Shown here: in pieces, positions 3,234 to 13,945 of the stretch | Layout of the letters: each line of letters begins with the position of its first letter | Numbering within the stretch: position 1 is the first letter of the stretch | Assembly: GCA_008501735.1 (NCBI GenBank) | Contig: QQUF01000034.1 | Location: forward strand, 1 to 22,337 | DNA: 22,337 nt | Source of the DNA: Calditrichota bacterium | GTDB taxonomy: Bacteria; CLD3 | Direction of reading: 5' to 3' | Made by a program: the position numbers and the translations under genes | Notes under the pieces: generated by a model | Seen by the model: the letters and a program-made list of their open reading frames with translations, nothing else | What the model was told of the DNA's origin: nothing | Database searches by the model: none

Positions 3234-4655
3234 ATGGCAAATTCGCAAAAAATTAAACTTCTGATTTCCTTACTAATCCCTCTCCTGATTTTAATCATTC
3301 CAAAAGAATTCATTCCGATAAACGACATTACAATCATTGAACAAAGATTGACGGCAATATTTTTTATGGCTGCTTTACTTTGGATATTGGAACCTATTCC
3401 AATTTACGCAACTTCCTTGCTCATCATTCTTTTAGAGTTAATTTTAGTCTCTGATAAAGGTCTTAATTTTCTCATTTCTGATACAACAAACCCTGAATTC
3501 GGTCAACTATTGAATTACAAATCAATCGTTGGGACTTTTGCTTCGCCAATTATTATGCTTTTCCTTGGCGGATTTTTCCTCGCAATGTCAGCCACAAAGT
3601 ACCGTTTGGACTTGAATTTAGCGAAGAACTTACTCAAGCCTTTTGGTAAAAAACCAAAGTTCATTTTGTTAGGCTTAATGGTCATCACGAGCCTTTTTTC
3701 GATGTTTATGAGTAACACAGCAACGACTGCAATGATGCTTGCAGTTTTGACTCCTGTTCTTGCATCTTTTCCAAAAAACGATAAAGGCAAAATCGCTTTC
3801 GTTCTCGCAATTCCTTTTGCTGCAAATATTGGCGGAATCGGAACTCCAATCGGAACTCCACCAAACGTTGTAGCCCTAAAATACTTGACAGGTGAAAATC
3901 AAATCGGTTTTGGTGAATGGATGGTTTTTTCTGTGCCTTTTCTGGCTGTGCTTTTGGTTTTCACTTGGCTTGTTTTGTGGAAGCTTTTTCCTTCTGAGCA
4001 AGAAAAAATCGAAATCAAAATCAAAGGCAAATTCCTCAGAAATGCAAAAGCAATTACAGTTTACTTCACTTTTGGAATGACAATTTTCCTTTGGCTTTTC
4101 GACTTTTTGCACGGAATGAATTCTTACATTGTCGCACTGATTCCTGTTGCAGTTTTCTCGGCTACAAAAATCATCACTAAAGAAGATTTGAAAAATGTTA
4201 GTTGGGACGTTCTTTGGCTGGTTTCTGGTGGAATTGCACTTGGTCAAGGTCTTGAAGAAAGCGGACTTGCAAAACACTTAGTTGAGACAGTTCCTTTTGG
4301 TACTTTTTCGTCTTACGTAATAATTTTATCGGCGACTTTGCTTACAATTTTAATGGCTTCTTTGATGTCAAACACCGCAACTGCAAATTTGCTTTTGCCG
4401 ATTGTTGCAGCACTCGGAGTCTCTTTGCCTGAATTAGAATTTCTTGGAGGTGCAAAAATGTTGATTTTGGCAGTTACTTTTTCCTGTTCTTTGGCAATGC
4501 CTTTGCCTGTTAGCACTCCACCAAACGCAATGGCTCACGCAACAGGTTTAGTAGAAAGTAATCAAATGGCAAAAGTAGGCTCAATCATCGGAATCTTCGG
4601 GCTTTTAGCTTCGTATCTTTTGATGTTCGTTCTGAACGAAATTGGATTTTTTTAA
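3234..4655 (+). CDS. SLC13/DASS-family anion (dicarboxylate/sulfate) symporter
   Basis: A 473-residue, very hydrophobic inner-membrane protein of the divalent anion:Na+ symporter family, which imports C4-dicarboxylates, citrate or sulfate with sodium. Both copies of the family's inverted-repeat signature are visible: MSNTATTAMM (S160-N161-T162) with TPIGTPPN (204-211), and MSNTATANLLLP (S379-N380-T381) with STPPNAMAHATG (427-438). In characterised members the two SNT motifs and neighbouring loops form the sodium and carboxylate sites. Around a dozen hydrophobic segments can be traced. Length is typical. The substrate cannot be told from the sequence; a dicarboxylate is the commonest choice. 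It has its own promoter, and no binding site better than a weak purine patch precedes the ATG, which is common in this phylum. Confidence 0.92.
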   Translation: MANSQKIKLLISLLIPLLILIIPKEFIPINDITIIEQRLTAIFFMAALLWILEPIPIYATSLLIILLELILVSDKGLNFLISDTTNPEFGQLLNYKSIVGTFASPIIMLFLGGFFLAMSATKYRLDLNLAKNLLKPFGKKPKFILLGLMVITSLFSMFMSNTATTAMMLAVLTPVLASFPKNDKGKIAFVLAIPFAANIGGIGTPIGTPPNVVALKYLTGENQIGFGEWMVFSVPFLAVLLVFTWLVLWKLFPSEQEKIEIKIKGKFLRNAKAITVYFTFGMTIFLWLFDFLHGMNSYIVALIPVAVFSATKIITKEDLKNVSWDVLWLVSGGIALGQGLEESGLAKHLVETVPFGTFSSYVIILSATLLTILMASLMSNTATANLLLPIVAALGVSLPELEFLGGAKMLILAVTFSCSLAMPLPVSTPPNAMAHATGLVESNQMAKVGSIIGIFGLLASYLLMFVLNEIGFF

Positions 4656-4748: not shown

Positions 4749-5864
4749 ATGAAATCAAATTCTTTTAGTAATTTATCAATTAATTCACTCGCACAAAGTC
4801 TAAAACAGACAACTAATTCCTATAAATTTTATTGGCTTTTATCAATTATTGAGCAACTTAATTTTGTCGATTTTGAAACTAAACACCTTTCCACAAAAGA
4901 CATTGTAGCAAGAATGATTGCCAAAATTTGGTATCCAATAAATCATCATAATTTATCATTCGGAAAACAAGATAAACTTGGTGAAATTGTAAATTTCATT
5001 AAGATGAACTCTGAGATTACAATTAAGGATTCAGAAGAAGTTATTTTTGAATTTCTAAAGGAAGAATTTCAAAACCCAAAAAGTCAGTTCAAAAAGTTAC
5101 TGAAAGATTTACAAAGGTACGTTCCATTTCGATTTTTAACACCTTGGTTTAAATTTGAATTACAAGGGATTGAACCTAAAGAGAAAAGAATAAAAGAATT
5201 ATCGAGTCTTCATTTTTTAGATTCCAATTTTTTACCTCTTTATCGTTTTTTAAATACCGAAGAACAAATAATAGAGATGAGCCCATATTGGATTGATTAT
5301 CTGAAAAATAATCAAAAAATATTAGCTGATTTTTGTTACTGGAATTTGGTGAATTATCTACAAACAAAGAATCCTAATACTCCAAACATTGCTTTCAAAT
5401 TATTTATGCCAAAGGAAAGAGATTTAAGAAAAGCGAGGTATTTTTGGAGTTTAGTTTTGAAAAAAGATTCAAATATTCATTGTATTTATTCAGGATTCAA
5501 TCTTAATGACAATTTTACAATTGACCACTTTGTTCCTTGGAGTTTTGTTGCACACGACAAATTGTGGAATCTTATCCCAACTTCTCAAATTGTTAATTCA
5601 CAAAAAGGGAATTCTATTCCATCATTAGAGAGCTACTTAACACCTTTTATTAAAACTCAATTTGAGACACTAAAGTTTTTTATTAATCTTGATAAAGAGA
5701 AAAAAATATTAGAAGATTACGCAATATTATTTGATTCAGATTTTAACTCAATGTTATCAATGTCTTTTAGTAACTTTAAAACAAAACTTGAAGATACAAT
5801 TAAACCACTTTGCCAAATCGCCTCAAACAATGGTTTTCAAATGAATTGGAAATTTAAGAATTAA
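4749..5864 (+). CDS. HNH endonuclease domain protein (unknown system)
   Basis: A 371-residue soluble protein. Residues 245-298 form an HNH (beta-beta-alpha metal) nuclease motif: CIYSG (245-249), then the catalytic IDHF (D259-H260), PWSF, LWNLIPTS with N275, and NSQKGNSIP with N283 and N288. The residues before it (1-240) are largely helical and lysine/aromatic-rich with no domain I recognise; residues 300-371 are also mostly helical. It has no ATPase, helicase or recognisable specificity domain. It ends 5 bases before a methyltransferase-HIT gene, so the two are probably co-translated. The gene is much more AT-rich than its neighbours: rows 5221-5280 and 5641-5700 hold 25% and 23% G+C by hand count, against 40% in the transporter (3901-3960). 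HNH identity is secure; role in defence or a mobile element is inference. Confidence 0.8.
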   Translation: MKSNSFSNLSINSLAQSLKQTTNSYKFYWLLSIIEQLNFVDFETKHLSTKDIVARMIAKIWYPINHHNLSFGKQDKLGEIVNFIKMNSEITIKDSEEVIFEFLKEEFQNPKSQFKKLLKDLQRYVPFRFLTPWFKFELQGIEPKEKRIKELSSLHFLDSNFLPLYRFLNTEEQIIEMSPYWIDYLKNNQKILADFCYWNLVNYLQTKNPNTPNIAFKLFMPKERDLRKARYFWSLVLKKDSNIHCIYSGFNLNDNFTIDHFVPWSFVAHDKLWNLIPTSQIVNSQKGNSIPSLESYLTPFIKTQFETLKFFINLDKEKKILEDYAILFDSDFNSMLSMSFSNFKTKLEDTIKPLCQIASNNGFQMNWKFKN

Positions 5865-5869
5865 AGACA

Positions 5870-6664
5870 ATGTTAAAATTTTCAGAGAAAAACCCAAATT
5901 CGCACCTTACGGTAAAAAAAAGAAAATATCTTTCCTTCCCATCACGATTTTTACTCGAAAATAATTATTTAAAAGGAAAAGTTTTAGATTTCGGTTGTGG
6001 GTTAGGCAAAGACGTAGAAATATTATCTCAGCAAGGAATTAACATTGTTGGCTATGACCCATTTTATTTTAATTCTTTTCCTAAAGAAAAATTTGATACG
6101 ATAATTTGTAATTATGTTTTAAATGTTTTGCTACCCGAAGAACAAGCGGCAGTTTTAATGCAAATTTCCGAATCTTTAAAACCTAAAGGCAAATGCTTTA
6201 TTAGTGTTAGAAGGGATATAAAAAGAAATGGTTTTAGATTCAATCCAAATTATGGTTGTAAAGTTTATCAGTGCAATGTGAAGTTACCCTATAAAAGCAT
6301 TTGCTTAAAAGAACATTGTGAAATTTATTCTTATGAACATTACACTCAAAACCGAGAGTCTAAAAACGAATGTAGGTTTTGTTCTCCAAAAGGAGAAGAT
6401 TTAATTACCGAATCAGCAACTTGTTATTCAATTTTTGAGAGAAACTCTGAAATAAAAGGAAGTGCTTTCGTGATACCCAAAATTCATACTTCAAATTATT
6501 TTGACCTATCACTTCATCACCAAATTGCAACTTTAATGGTTATCGAAAAAACTCAACAAGTCATTTTCAATTCTTTAAAGCCTAAAGAAATTAATGTAAA
6601 ATTCAGTCTTACCAAAGACGAGAAAATAAGACATTCTTTCATTCAACTGATTCCCATCTTTTAG
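5870..6664 (+). CDS. SAM-dependent methyltransferase fused to a degenerate HIT-like domain
   Basis: A 264-residue protein with two parts. Residues 35-115 are a class I methyltransferase fold: SAM-binding loop VLDFGCGLGKD (38-48), acidic end of the second strand GYDP (61-64), and FDTIICNYVLNVL (75-87). From about 168 the sequence resembles the HIT nucleotide-hydrolase family: CRFC (168-171), ESATCYSIFERN, KGSAFVIPKIH (196-206) and NYFDLS. The expected histidine triad near the end, HxHxH followed by LIPR, reads HSFIQLIPIF (255-264), so the nucleophile position is Phe and the third His is Gln; hydrolase activity is doubtful. No (N/D)PPY motif is present, so it is not a classical N6-adenine DNA methyltransferase. 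It follows the HNH gene by 5 bases and shares its extreme AT content (15% G+C in 6061-6120). Substrate unknown. Confidence 0.75.
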   Translation: MLKFSEKNPNSHLTVKKRKYLSFPSRFLLENNYLKGKVLDFGCGLGKDVEILSQQGINIVGYDPFYFNSFPKEKFDTIICNYVLNVLLPEEQAAVLMQISESLKPKGKCFISVRRDIKRNGFRFNPNYGCKVYQCNVKLPYKSICLKEHCEIYSYEHYTQNRESKNECRFCSPKGEDLITESATCYSIFERNSEIKGSAFVIPKIHTSNYFDLSLHHQIATLMVIEKTQQVIFNSLKPKEINVKFSLTKDEKIRHSFIQLIPIF

Positions 6665-6789: not shown

Positions 6790-7551
6790 ATGCTTTTTGA
6801 CACTCACGCTCATTTGGATTTCAAGACTTTCAAAGATGACTTTGATTCGGTTCTGCAAAGAGCAAAAGATAACGGCGTAACTCACATCACTTCAATCGGA
6901 ATTGATTTACAGACAAGCAAAAATGCGGTTGCAATCGCCGAACAACACGAAAATATTTGGGCAACAGTCGGACTTCACCCTTGCGATTTGGAAGATTTTT
7001 CAGAAGAAAATTTTGCCGAACAAGAAGAAATGCTTTCTCACCCGAAAGTCGTTGCAGTCGGCGAAATCGGTTTGGACTACTACCATAAATTGAACTACTC
7101 AAATGAATTTCAAATTGATATTTTTAGAAAATATTTACGGCTCGCGAAAAAACACTCAATGCCTGTCGTGATTCACAAAAGAAATTCTGATGAAGACACT
7201 TACAGAGTTCTGAAAGAAGAAAATGTTGGAAAAGGAATTTTGCACTGCTTCGACGGAGACACAAAACTTGCTTTGGATTTCATCGAACTTGGATTTCACA
7301 TTTCATTTCCGGGAATTGTTACTTTCAAAAACTCCAAGCTTTTTGAAGTTGCAAAAGAACTTCCGCTTGAAAAAATGCTTGTCGAAACTGATTCTCCTTT
7401 TCTTGCTCCTCACCCAAACAGAGGAAAAAGAAATGAACCTTCTTTTGTACGTCTGACAGCAGAAAAAATCGCAGAAGTAAAAGGGATTTCATTGGAAGAA
7501 TTTGCAACCCAAACAACACAAAATGCCAAAAATGTTTTCGGAATAAGTTAA
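6790..7551 (+). CDS. TatD-family metal-dependent DNase
   Basis: A 253-residue TIM-barrel amidohydrolase-like nuclease. Metal and active-site residues of the TatD/YcfH family are all present: DTHAHLD (H6, H8), GLHPCD (62-66), GEIGLDYY (E92), VIHKR (H129), GILHCFDG (H152) and ETDSPFLAPHPNRGKRN (D201). Family members are magnesium-dependent 3'-5' exonucleases or deoxyribonucleases acting on DNA or RNA in the cytoplasm, and some hydrolyse D-aminoacyl-tRNA. Length is normal. An AAAGG binding site sits a few bases before the ATG. G+C rises sharply again here (48% in 7021-7080), marking the right edge of the AT-rich cassette. Which of the TatD paralogues (TatD, YcfH, YjjV) it corresponds to cannot be settled by eye. 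Confidence 0.93.
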   Translation: MLFDTHAHLDFKTFKDDFDSVLQRAKDNGVTHITSIGIDLQTSKNAVAIAEQHENIWATVGLHPCDLEDFSEENFAEQEEMLSHPKVVAVGEIGLDYYHKLNYSNEFQIDIFRKYLRLAKKHSMPVVIHKRNSDEDTYRVLKEENVGKGILHCFDGDTKLALDFIELGFHISFPGIVTFKNSKLFEVAKELPLEKMLVETDSPFLAPHPNRGKRNEPSFVRLTAEKIAEVKGISLEEFATQTTQNAKNVFGIS

Positions 7552-10593: not shown

Positions 10594-13245
10594 ATGAAAA
10601 GATTTTTCTTAATTTTATTTTTACTCACTCTCACGACTTTTGCTTTTGGCAATGAAAAAATTCGACCTTTGAAATCACTTTCAAAAGATGAGATTTCAAG
10701 GACTTTAAAAGCCAACCAAAAACCTTTCAAACCTTTGGGCAAAAAGACTGCTTCGATTAGTGGAGTTCAGACTGAGTTTAACGTTCAAAGATTTTCAAAA
10801 ACTCTTAAACCTGATTCTGTTTGGCAAATTACTTTTCCTTCTGTTGAAGGTGGCTTTTATCTCTTCGACATTAATGCACAAATTCTTGGCTCAAAACTTT
10901 ATCCTGAAATGGCAATTGCAAGGACTGACACAAATGATACTAAAGATTCTTTAGCTTTTGTAACAACACCAGATTTATTCTCAAATAAAATTGACGGTGG
11001 TTTTTTGGGAAGTCAAAGTGAGTTAGTTAGTGCTTTAGGTGTTAAGGAAGGAGAACAAACTCCTGAACAATTTTACCTCTACATTGCTGACGAAGAATTT
11101 GGTGAAGGTGGTTACTTTGAATTTTCCTTTTTGACTTTTGAAACAAAGAAAATTGATTCTTTAGACACAGAACCAAACGATGATTTTCAGACTGCACAAA
11201 CTTTACAAGGCGATTTTACTGAGGGAAATTATTTCACAATTGGAACTCTAAAATTCACTCAAATTGATTCTTCTGACGACGTTGTGGAACCTGAAAATGA
11301 TTTTTTCGTCTTTGAGGCAATCGCAGGAATTCCCTACGAAATTACTCTGAATTCAAACACTATCGAAAGTTTTAATTCAGCTTTTGATTCTTTCATAAAA
11401 ATTTATGACACAAACAGAAACTTAATTTCACAAAACGACGACTACTTTCACTTTTTAGACTCAAGAGCTGTTTTTAAACCAATTGTTTCTGGACAACATT
11501 TTATTGAAATCACATCGGCTTCGAATAGCTTTTCTGACCAAAACTTATCTTTTGACAGATTAAGTTTGCCTTACGAAATCCGTGTAAAAAGGCTTCAAGA
11601 ACTTGCCTTTACCGAAAATTTTACCATTGATTCAACTAACTCAACTACAACCCAAAAACTTGATTTTTCTCAGACAAACTCAATCGAATTTGAATTTACG
11701 ACAAACAACAGTGGCTGGATTTTTGAGTTTGAAACTAACTCTCAAGGTCTTGGGCTTTCCTTAGACACAAAACTTAAACTTTACTCTTTGGTAAGCGGAG
11801 CTGAGGAACTAATTGCTGAAAACGATGACAAAAGTTTCCCTTTCTCGGTTGACTCAAGGCTCACAACAATTTTACCTGACTCAGGAGATTACAAACTTGT
11901 TGTCGAAAATCATTTGCCTTTTGGAGGAGCAATTTCAGATTACTTACCCGAAGAGTTGCAAGGACTTTTGACTTACCGTTACGTTGGAAGCGATATAAAC
12001 GAGGAAAATGATTTCTTTTGGTCTGCGACTCAGGTTCCAATCCCTGAATCCTTAGAAGCACCAAATTACACTTATTCTTACAATTTTAAAGGGAATCTTT
12101 TGAGCAAAGATGACCTTGATTACTTTGTCTTTAATTTGCGGGATAGCACTTACTTTAATCTTTACACTCCTTTTGAAGACACTCTTAAAAGTCGTCCGAT
12201 TTTCTTTACAATTTATAACAATGAAGTTACTGAGTCAGAAAATCCAATGGAAACTCTTTTCAAATTTTATGACAAAGACTTTGGCAATTTAGGAACAAGC
12301 GAAATACTTGTAGGTAATAATTTTTACTCTAACATTCTCACTTTCAAAGACGACGGAAACTTCTACTTAGAACTTTCACATAGTGATGGAGAATTCGGAA
12401 ATTACGACGTTAATTTTAGAATGGACGCAGGTCTTGAGATTGAATTACCAGAGGAATTAGAGTTAGCGACTTACGATGAATTAAATTTTCCTTTGACCTC
12501 CTCTTGGGAATCAAATATTATCGAACTTGATTTCACAAGTAAGTCTGATTTTTACTACTTAACATTTGAAGTTGATTCAAACTTGGTTTATGCTGACACT
12601 TCTTTTGAAGACTCGACGATTACTAAAAGAGAAATTGAATTGATGATTGAAAACAAGTCCTCTGGTGGAAGAGGAATGAAAATTTTTGTTGAGATTTTTT
12701 CAGAAGATGGTTCAATTATTAATTTAACAAATGGAACTGCAAGTGATAGTTTAGCTTTAGGTGATTCCACAATAACAGAGTTTTTCTTCCCTTTTAATGT
12801 GGGTTTCGTTCCTGAGAGAGATTTTATTCGTATTTCTCATTTTAACGGAAATTTTACCACAGCTGAAATAACATTACATCTGTTTGCTTATGAGTACGAG
12901 GATCCTCTTCTCCAAATCCAATCAACCGACACAACTGATTCACAAATACTTGAGCCGATTCCTGAGAAGTACAGTTTATCGCAAAATTTCCCGAACCCGT
13001 TTAATCCAACTACACAAATTAATTACTCACTTAAGCAACCGGAAACTGTAAACCTAAAAATATTTAATGTTCTTGGACAAGAGGTCATTTCACTTGTAAA
13101 TTCCAAAGCACAAAAAGAAGGTTCTCACTCAATTGTTTGGAATGGAACTGACAAAAATGGAACTCAAGTCGGAAGTGGAATTTACTTTTACAGAATCGAA
13201 GCGGGTGAATTTGTCAAAACCAAAAAAATGCTTTTACTAAAATGA
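10594..13245 (+). CDS. Large T9SS-exported protein with prepeptidase-like domains
   Basis: An 883-residue exported protein, 7 bases after the protease. A signal peptide (MKRFFLILFLLTLTTFAFG, cut before NEK) is followed by a unique N-terminal region. A bacterial prepeptidase C-terminal domain (about 192-309: DTEPNDDFQTAQTL, DFFVFEA, DSFIKIYD, QNDDY, HFIEIT) comes next. At least two more copies in diverged form follow (DTKLKLYS, ENDDKS, YKLVVEN; then DDLDYFVFNL, NFYLELS). The C-terminus is a type A T9SS sorting domain: SQNFPNPFNPTTQINY, IFNVLGQEV, SGIYFYRIEAG and a basic KKMLLLK end. No protease motif is visible, so it is probably a binding or structural surface protein. TTG 10591 is directly upstream in frame, but ATG is preferred. 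Its stop overlaps the next start as ATGA. Confidence 0.85.
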   Translation: MKRFFLILFLLTLTTFAFGNEKIRPLKSLSKDEISRTLKANQKPFKPLGKKTASISGVQTEFNVQRFSKTLKPDSVWQITFPSVEGGFYLFDINAQILGSKLYPEMAIARTDTNDTKDSLAFVTTPDLFSNKIDGGFLGSQSELVSALGVKEGEQTPEQFYLYIADEEFGEGGYFEFSFLTFETKKIDSLDTEPNDDFQTAQTLQGDFTEGNYFTIGTLKFTQIDSSDDVVEPENDFFVFEAIAGIPYEITLNSNTIESFNSAFDSFIKIYDTNRNLISQNDDYFHFLDSRAVFKPIVSGQHFIEITSASNSFSDQNLSFDRLSLPYEIRVKRLQELAFTENFTIDSTNSTTTQKLDFSQTNSIEFEFTTNNSGWIFEFETNSQGLGLSLDTKLKLYSLVSGAEELIAENDDKSFPFSVDSRLTTILPDSGDYKLVVENHLPFGGAISDYLPEELQGLLTYRYVGSDINEENDFFWSATQVPIPESLEAPNYTYSYNFKGNLLSKDDLDYFVFNLRDSTYFNLYTPFEDTLKSRPIFFTIYNNEVTESENPMETLFKFYDKDFGNLGTSEILVGNNFYSNILTFKDDGNFYLELSHSDGEFGNYDVNFRMDAGLEIELPEELELATYDELNFPLTSSWESNIIELDFTSKSDFYYLTFEVDSNLVYADTSFEDSTITKREIELMIENKSSGGRGMKIFVEIFSEDGSIINLTNGTASDSLALGDSTITEFFFPFNVGFVPERDFIRISHFNGNFTTAEITLHLFAYEYEDPLLQIQSTDTTDSQILEPIPEKYSLSQNFPNPFNPTTQINYSLKQPETVNLKIFNVLGQEVISLVNSKAQKEGSHSIVWNGTDKNGTQVGSGIYFYRIEAGEFVKTKKMLLLK

Positions 13246-13562
13246 CAAAAACAAAAGAAAAAAACTTATCAGAATTGAAAAAAATAATTCTGGATTCGAT
13301 AAATCCCGAAGAGCATTCTGTTTTTCTTTTTGGTTCAAGAGCAACCCAAACCTCAAAACACTATTCTGATTTTGATATTGGTATTTTGGGCAAAAAGCCA
13401 CTTGGGAAGGCTTACCATAAAATTATTAATCAAATTGAAGATTTTTTCATTCCTTATAAAATTGATTTGGTAGATTTTTATTTTGTAAAGAATGACTTTA
13501 AAAAAGAAGTACTCAAAGGAGCTATTTTTTGGAACAAACCAAAAGATATGAATTCAAATTAA
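13242..13562 (+). CDS. mntA: MntA-like nucleotidyltransferase, antitoxin of HepT pair
   Basis: A 106-residue minimal nucleotidyltransferase. The fold signature is complete: FLFGSRATQTS (G31-S32), SDFDIGI with catalytic D43 and D45, and the third acidic residue in KIDLVDF (D75). In characterised MntA-HepT systems this enzyme transfers AMP from ATP onto a tyrosine of HepT and so blocks the toxin. The ATG overlaps the TGA of the T9SS gene (ATGA), and its own 3' end overlaps hepT by 34 bases. Composition is AT-rich compared with the thiolase downstream. The family also includes aminoglycoside nucleotidyltransferase-like proteins, but the small size and partner gene argue for the toxin-antitoxin type. 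Confidence 0.85.
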   Translation: MTKTKEKNLSELKKIILDSINPEEHSVFLFGSRATQTSKHYSDFDIGILGKKPLGKAYHKIINQIEDFFIPYKIDLVDFYFVKNDFKKEVLKGAIFWNKPKDMNSN

Positions 13563-13945
13563 TAATTTTTGAAAAAGTCTTAGACACTTTTGAAAAATCT
13601 TTAAAAGTTGATTTAGGAAAATTTTCAGAAATTGAGTTAGATACTTTTCAAAACGGACAGGTTCAGAAATTTGAGTATTGTGTCGAGATTTGTTGGAAAA
13701 CTATCAAATCTTTTTTAGAAGATGTTCACGGTTTGGAATCTGTTTCTCCAAAATCAGCATTTAAAGTTTTTTTTCAAACAGGCTCAATTGACGAAGAAAC
13801 TTGTGAATCTCTTTTTGAAATGATAAATGACAGAAATCGCTTGAGTCATATCTACGAAAATGATATTTTCAATGAAATTTATAAAAAACTACCAATTTAC
13901 TTAGAAATATTAAAATCAATTTCTACAATAATTAAGAATAATTAA
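13529..13945 (+). CDS. hepT: HepT-like HEPN toxin (HI0074 family), TTG start
   Basis: A 138-residue, mainly helical protein of the HEPN superfamily, the 'nucleotidyltransferase substrate-binding' group. The catalytic RX4HXY motif is intact: R102, H107 and Y109 in DRNRLSHIYEND; in studied HepT toxins R and H form the RNase site and Y is the AMPylated residue. NGQVQKFEYCVEICWKTIK (42-60) is typical of the HI0074 branch. The start is TTG at 13529, 7 bases after AAAGGAG (13515-13521) inside mntA, which makes this start convincing. The next in-frame ATG lies far downstream and would remove most of the protein. A hand count of 13561-13620 gives 20% G+C. With mntA it forms a probable toxin-antitoxin or phage-defence pair. 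Confidence 0.87.
   Translation: MEQTKRYEFKLIIFEKVLDTFEKSLKVDLGKFSEIELDTFQNGQVQKFEYCVEICWKTIKSFLEDVHGLESVSPKSAFKVFFQTGSIDEETCESLFEMINDRNRLSHIYENDIFNEIYKKLPIYLEILKSISTIIKNN

Follow-up and report, generated by a model that had tools for sequence, protein, structure and literature searches.

The window (the whole stretch of 22,337 nucleotides of Calditrichota bacterium DNA that was analyzed) contains two adjacent genes, one for an HNH nuclease and one for a protein in which a methyltransferase is fused to a HIT domain (Table 1). The spacing between them is 5 bases, and they lie between a gene for an SLC13-like transporter and tatD, an arrangement that the original prediction had described and with which the open reading frames (ORFs) agree. 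In the sole other genome of the same family (G001), tatD sits among other genes, with neither the transporter gene nor thrS beside it.

The G+C content is 27.1% in the HNH gene and 29.7% in the methyltransferase-HIT gene, versus 37.7% and 37.5% in the flanking genes, and no other stretch of that size in the window is as low in G+C as the pair (0.282, against a minimum of 0.308 elsewhere). The contrast reported earlier is real but was exaggerated when given as 15-25% against 40-48%, and the low G+C of the pair is due in part to amino-acid composition. Elsewhere in the window, positions 13242-13945 hold a unit as A+T-rich as the pair (26-27% G+C), which resembles a minimal nucleotidyltransferase plus DUF86/HI0074-type gene pair. 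Cyanobacterial plasmids (L002, L004, L009) also have similar small nucleotidyltransferase/DUF86-like pairs close to the HNH gene.

Table 1. Features of the window and of related loci (locus label before the colon)
Feature	Coordinates	Strand	Details
SLC13-like transporter gene	3234-4655		one flank of the pair
HNH nuclease gene	4749..5864	+	371 aa complete ORF
N-terminal all-helical domain of HNH protein	4749..5414	+	residues ~1-222; AlphaFold model
Cas9-type HNH domain	5415..5837	+	residues 223-363; structural matches
Asp259-His260, HNH signature	5523..5528	+	conservation in 52 relatives
Methyltransferase-HIT fusion gene	5870..6664	+	264 aa complete ORF
Class I SAM-dependent methyltransferase domain	5885..6343	+	residues 6-158; fold match
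SAM-binding motif I, LDFGCGLGKD	5984..6013	+	residues 39-48
HIT domain	6359..6661	+	residues 164-264; fold match and alignment
Cys168 and Cys171	6371..6382	+	predicted zinc ligands, together with His206 and His255
Degenerate HIT motif HSFIQ	6632..6646	+	His255 retained; Phe257 in place of the catalytic His and Gln259 in place of the third His
tatD	6790-7551		other flank of the pair
sspB 5' remnants	L015:7921-7995, L077:6570-6638, L081:7888-7956, L086:7888-7956, L022:339-404, L025:7641-7808
YhcG/DUF1016 nuclease genes, examples	L049:3-1163, L053:6870-7961, L069:5673-7952		upstream of HNH

Domains and motifs of the two proteins

The HNH protein passes the Pfam HNH_4 profile (E 5.7e-10; 39.4 bits against a gathering score of 22), and the Asp-His and Asn of that family are conserved: H260, N274, N283, and K286 are invariant in 52 HNH relatives, and D259 is present in at least 90% of them. 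In the AlphaFold model (pLDDT 94; alignment of 52 sequences), this nuclease domain follows an all-helical N-terminal domain. With the whole protein as query, matches in the PDB are almost confined to residues 225-363, the top ones being Cas9 HNH domains (Z 5-6 over ~90-110 residues), and nothing convincing was found for the helical domain. The latter carries the family motif (T/S)xxYKF, of which YKF is common to both HNH subfamilies (see below). The likeness to Cas9, which includes weak matches to Cas9 profiles, lies in the fold and motif of the nuclease domain; unlike Cas9, the protein has 371 aa, its remainder is without a Cas9 match, and no CRISPR features were seen. Assignment to a known defense family by profile was dropped, given just weak Cas9, PDC-M01B, and mad2 matches. 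Some cyanobacterial HNH relatives (L002:9707-11083, L010:95-1468) have an additional N-terminal segment of ~75 residues that is helix-turn-helix-like.

The methyltransferase-HIT protein (AlphaFold model pLDDT 91) matches Pfam Methyltransf_23 at E 2.7e-15, and its methyltransferase domain is clear by fold (Z 14.0 to 7bgg and 13.5 to 4nec). SAM-binding motif I is intact in the window copy, and its residues L39, D40, G42, G44, G46, and D48 are invariant in 42 relatives. The best curated match of this half is TIGR04096 (DNA phosphorothioation-associated putative methyltransferase; E 3.1e-15, residues 12-87), but the score of 55.9 bits is far below the cut-off of 150 and the match covers only the first 82 of 478 model positions. 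As had been noted from the sequence, the methyltransferase has no (N/D)PPY motif, its motif-IV region reading CNYVLNVL, and there is no target-recognition domain, HIT being the sole additional domain. The view that this is not ordinary (type II) restriction-modification was therefore upheld. Judging by the modeled fold and the motifs (best matches 7bgg and 4nec), the methyltransferase appears to be of the small-molecule/RNA class. A longer form of the fusion (~365 aa, with a C-terminal extension of ~70 residues) occurs at five loci (L045, L055, L056, L059, L119).

By sequence, the HIT domain stays below threshold (E 0.075), but residues 166-264 clearly match the fold of 1y23 (Z 14.1, rmsd 1.8 over 98 residues). 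According to the alignment, the window copy is shorter at the C terminus than most relatives, with the tail missing, and is also without the relatives' conserved Gly-His and Gly-Gln. Four residues (C168, C171, H206, and H255), predicted to be zinc ligands as in other HIT proteins, are kept in the window copy and in 36 of 39 relatives. The catalytic HxHxH triad, on the other hand, is degenerate in the window copy (HSFIQ). Across the family, the second (catalytic) histidine is kept in 26 of 39 members and lost in 12, including the window copy, with Ser, Ala, Thr, Gly, Cys, Tyr, or Phe in its place; one further member is cut short. On the tree, the loss corresponds to at least four changes, and the predicted zinc ligands are kept in 11 of the 12 members lacking the nucleophile. 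With the predicted zinc ligands kept and the catalytic histidine lost, the HIT domain of the window copy is a pseudo-enzyme, so HIT catalysis cannot be its job. Where the catalytic residue is gone and the zinc site remains, as in part of the family, the domain seems more likely to bind a ligand than to hydrolyze it.

A HIT protein, ThsC, is also part of Thoeris type II, and it has been proposed to switch off a nucleotide signal there (PMC8565338). Here too there is a HIT-domain partner in a putative defense operon, and canonical members of the present family match the PADLOC ThsC2 profile at E 4e-11 and 7e-12. Unlike ThsC, however, the HIT domain described here is fused to a methyltransferase and, in the window copy, is without the catalytic histidine, and no ThsA or ThsB genes were recognized by eye among the window ORFs.

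Recurrence and neighborhood of the pair

The HNH-anchored scan of GTDB genomes with the HNH alignment kept 80 loci (relatives of 33-44% identity). The partner gene directly adjoins the HNH gene at 45 of these, which with the window makes 46 pair loci spanning at least Bacteroidota, Chlorobiota, Chloroflexota, and the window's own small phylum, and the two genes usually overlap or stand within ~25 bases. One locus counted by clustering (L026) was left out of the pairs because its methyltransferase has no recognized HIT part and is upstream of the HNH gene. Conversely, the HNH family is without a methyltransferase-HIT partner at 44 of 91 loci.

An independent, partner-anchored search of 393 Bacteroidales-order genomes returned 16 full-length methyltransferase-HIT genes, and all 16 are directly downstream of an HNH gene. 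Four of these pairs have an HNH protein from a second subfamily, whose resemblance to the first lies mostly in the HNH core and the overall architecture. Among stand-alone HIT genes of the same HIT subfamily, three of three evaluable cases follow an HNH gene (the fourth is at a contig end), compared with none of the next ten weaker HIT matches. HNH distances and partner distances are correlated over 24 loci (rho 0.61; 0 of 2000 permutations), although common ancestry alone could produce this correlation. The pair is thus a recurrent two-gene unit, with adjacency far beyond chance. It is also accessory and patchily distributed, because it is present in just one of nine genomes examined from the window's phylum (absent from the other eight) and in 16 of the 393 Bacteroidales-order genomes. 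The original prediction had left it to database searches whether homologs of the two proteins co-occur and whether the pair is fixed across the phylum; they do co-occur, and it is not.

Two loci show other arrangements of these parts. On a Roseomonas plasmid, a class I methyltransferase is fused to a second-subfamily HNH (L140:1804-3525), two genes from mcrC. At another locus, two fragments ~85% identical to the stand-alone HIT genes (L155:3750-3890 and L155:7172-7267) lie upstream of an HNH-HIT pair, which looks like repeated duplication or recombination of the HIT gene.

The original prediction also raised the possibility that the pair lies in defense islands, and this is partly borne out. 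Neighbors of the pair loci, in a listing that was uncontrolled, include PADLOC matches to AriA, PtuA, LmuB, PbeA, DpdF, and others, in addition to phosphorothioation genes (see below), but many metabolic genes are likewise among them. A gene for a YhcG/DUF1016 PD-(D/E)XK nuclease is directly upstream of HNH in seven pair loci, in tandem in two (examples in Table 1). No relatives of the pair were found in viral contigs, and phage records gave partial matches only.

Phosphorothioation genes and their absence

Several HNH relatives lie in or near gene clusters for DNA phosphorothioation. Those on plasmids stand among genes for cysteine desulfurase, DUF4007 (SspB), SspC, and PAPS-reductase (SspD), and further HNH loci adjoin dndC, dndD, dndE, dptF, and dndG, or sspF and sspG. 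A DUF4007 gene is found within 8 kb of ~24% of HNH loci, versus anywhere in the genome (above cut-off) for 23 of 393 Bacteroidales-order genomes (5.9%). The HNH family is thus specifically tied to phosphorothioation systems (Ssp, Dnd, SspFGH, and DndFGH), an association that had gone unnoticed in the original prediction. HNH nucleases have been reported to accompany Dnd and BREX systems recurrently and interchangeably (PMC10853773, PMC12839542), so finding an HNH gene next to such genes is no novelty on its own.

The association is looser where the fusion partner is present. Counting genes within ~8 kb, ssp or dnd genes occur at 23 of 44 HNH loci without the fusion versus 11 of 45 with it (window and L026 excluded), and 21 HNH loci have neither the fusion partner nor phosphorothioation genes. 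In the Bacteroidales-order set, full sspB is near one of 16 pairs and remnants are near three, and around the remaining 12 there are neither ssp or dnd genes nor remnants of them; the phosphorothioation link could therefore be plain island co-residence.

In Ssp (SspABCD with SspE or SspFGH), relatives of the HNH gene sit within sspB/sspC/sspD/sspA clusters and beside sspF/sspG. However, in SspE an HNH domain of the DUF1524 type follows an NTPase domain (DUF262) at the N terminus (PMC11662687, PMC9646914), whereas the protein here combines a helical N-terminal domain with an HNH of the HNH_4/Cas9 type; no DUF262 match was found in it, HNH_4 being the only profile above cut-off, which sets it apart from SspE-type components. 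In several relatives the HNH gene lies beside dndCDE and dptF/dndG, genes of Dnd systems (IscS-DndBCDE with DndI or DndFGH). DndI likewise comprises DUF262 and DUF1524, and both DndI and DndFGH are reported to harm cells without the phosphorothioation modification (PMC11662687). In contrast, the HNH/methyltransferase-HIT pair persists without sspB or dndC.

The evidence for such persistence comes from scars. In five pair loci beyond the 11 just counted (L015, L025, L077, L081, L086), a truncated 5' fragment of sspB that retains the start region of the gene (FSGHxSFPC) lies upstream of the HNH gene, and in L015, L081, and L086 its stop codon shares bases with the HNH start codon (ATGA). The L015 remnant is distinct from the other three, and this pattern suggests repeated deletion or module exchange just past the sspB start. 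Full sspB is still present beside nearly identical pairs (L080, L085). The L077, L081, and L086 genomes contain neither a further DUF4007 match nor DndC, and their HNH and partner genes diverge at dN/dS 0.07-0.10, a sign of strong purifying selection (these figures describe the scar lineages; the window copy is divergent and without close relatives). To judge by this selection, the pair has been kept functional in the scar lineages without sspB and dndC.

The window genome (rated 100% complete) has no match to DUF4007 (PF13182), although the same search was positive in four relatives' genomes and one plasmid, and no match to DndC (TIGR03183), for which the search was positive in three other genomes (G009, G010, G030). 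By these two markers, no Ssp/Dnd machinery lies elsewhere in the window genome. No sspB scar was found upstream of the window pair. It should be noted that HIT decay cannot be attributed to loss of phosphorothioation, since the nucleophile is also gone from members whose genomes carry sspB.

Interpretation and alternatives

The pair is absent from PADLOC-DB 2.0.0, and we found no description of it in a literature search conducted largely outside subscription journals and preprints. The original prediction had singled it out as a candidate undescribed defense or mobile module. This absence and the association with defense genes favor that view, and we infer the defense role itself: the pair is probably an undescribed anti-virus module. 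With somewhat less than even confidence, we read the two genes more specifically as an autonomous effector module of defense islands, in which an HNH effector is under the control of its methyltransferase-HIT partner.

In such a module, the Cas9-type HNH domain would cut or nick DNA, and the helical N-terminal domain may recognize DNA or a partner. The methyltransferase-HIT protein would be a dedicated partner with SAM and a nucleotide (or nucleotidyl adduct) as its ligands, and would either control the nuclease or handle a small molecule that switches it. We assign the roles this way because the partner never occurs without HNH in the Bacteroidales-order sample, HNH often occurs without the partner, HIT-only partners exist, and catalysis has been lost with the zinc site kept in part of the family. 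The module may have been swapped into and out of Ssp/Dnd clusters, there serving as one of several interchangeable restriction components, and would keep working without phosphorothioation. In the window it stands alone, with HNH and methyltransferase motifs intact and the HIT domain apparently reduced to a zinc-binding, probably ligand-sensing pseudo-enzyme. A fuller version is possible but doubtful: a two-gene immune system in which a SAM/nucleotide-binding methyltransferase-HIT sensor gates the Cas9-type HNH, portable between autonomous and phosphorothioation settings, with HIT catalysis repeatedly lost and the sensor left.

Other explanations share some of this evidence. A restriction-modification-like system, in which the methyltransferase marks self DNA (alone or in place of phosphorothioation) and the HNH protein cuts unmarked DNA, would account for a nuclease and a methyltransferase in one operon and for the methyltransferase-HNH fusion near mcrC. 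It would also fit the higher frequency of phosphorothioation genes at partner-less HNH loci, as if the protective activities substituted for each other. Yet both activities occur at some pair loci and neither at 21 HNH loci, some partners are HIT-only, and by fold and motifs the protein falls in the small-molecule/RNA class and has neither the catalytic motif of a DNA methyltransferase nor a target-recognition domain; we consider this explanation unlikely. Somewhat less likely again is a toxin-antitoxin system in which the methyltransferase-HIT protein neutralizes an HNH toxin and the genes are kept by addiction rather than defense. The tight operons, with genes overlapping or nearly so, and a partner that is never without an HNH gene are what it would predict, but the nuclease gene comes first in the order, and the many HNH loci without a partner imply that the nuclease in general needs no such antitoxin.

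The recurrent Ssp/Dnd context and the resemblance of the methyltransferase to TIGR04096 could instead point to sulfur handling, with the partner processing phosphorothioate nucleotides released from cut sulfur-modified DNA, HIT removing sulfide and the methyltransferase capping thiols. There is a precedent in HINT1, which converts (d)NMPS to (d)NMP and H2S (PMC8775712), with sulfide removal from dGMPS included. However, most pairs are at loci without phosphorothioation genes, the window genome has neither sspB nor dndC, and the members that have lost the catalytic HIT histidine include L025, L040, and L042, whose genomes keep sspB; this makes the idea very unlikely. We hold it just as improbable that the HNH gene is a selfish or homing element without host function, carrying the methyltransferase-HIT gene as a passenger. 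Homing enzymes are frequent among HNH genes, and a patchy distribution, with absence from eight other genomes of the phylum, would be expected of one. Against this, the full gene pair is present every time, both genes are under strong purifying selection, the unit turns up repeatedly within Ssp operons and close to Dnd genes, and the viral contigs yielded no relative.

Phosphorothioation-based defense already uses several interchangeable restriction components. To these, the present analysis adds an HNH family that is widely found beside Ssp and Dnd genes, as well as a dedicated methyltransferase-HIT partner that travels with the HNH gene and outlasts the sulfur-modification genes. If the partner does control the nuclease, it would be one of few examples in which an immune nuclease is gated by a fusion of metabolic enzymes. 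Closely related loci that differ in having or lacking ssp genes would then offer a natural experiment on how such modules avoid cutting self DNA.
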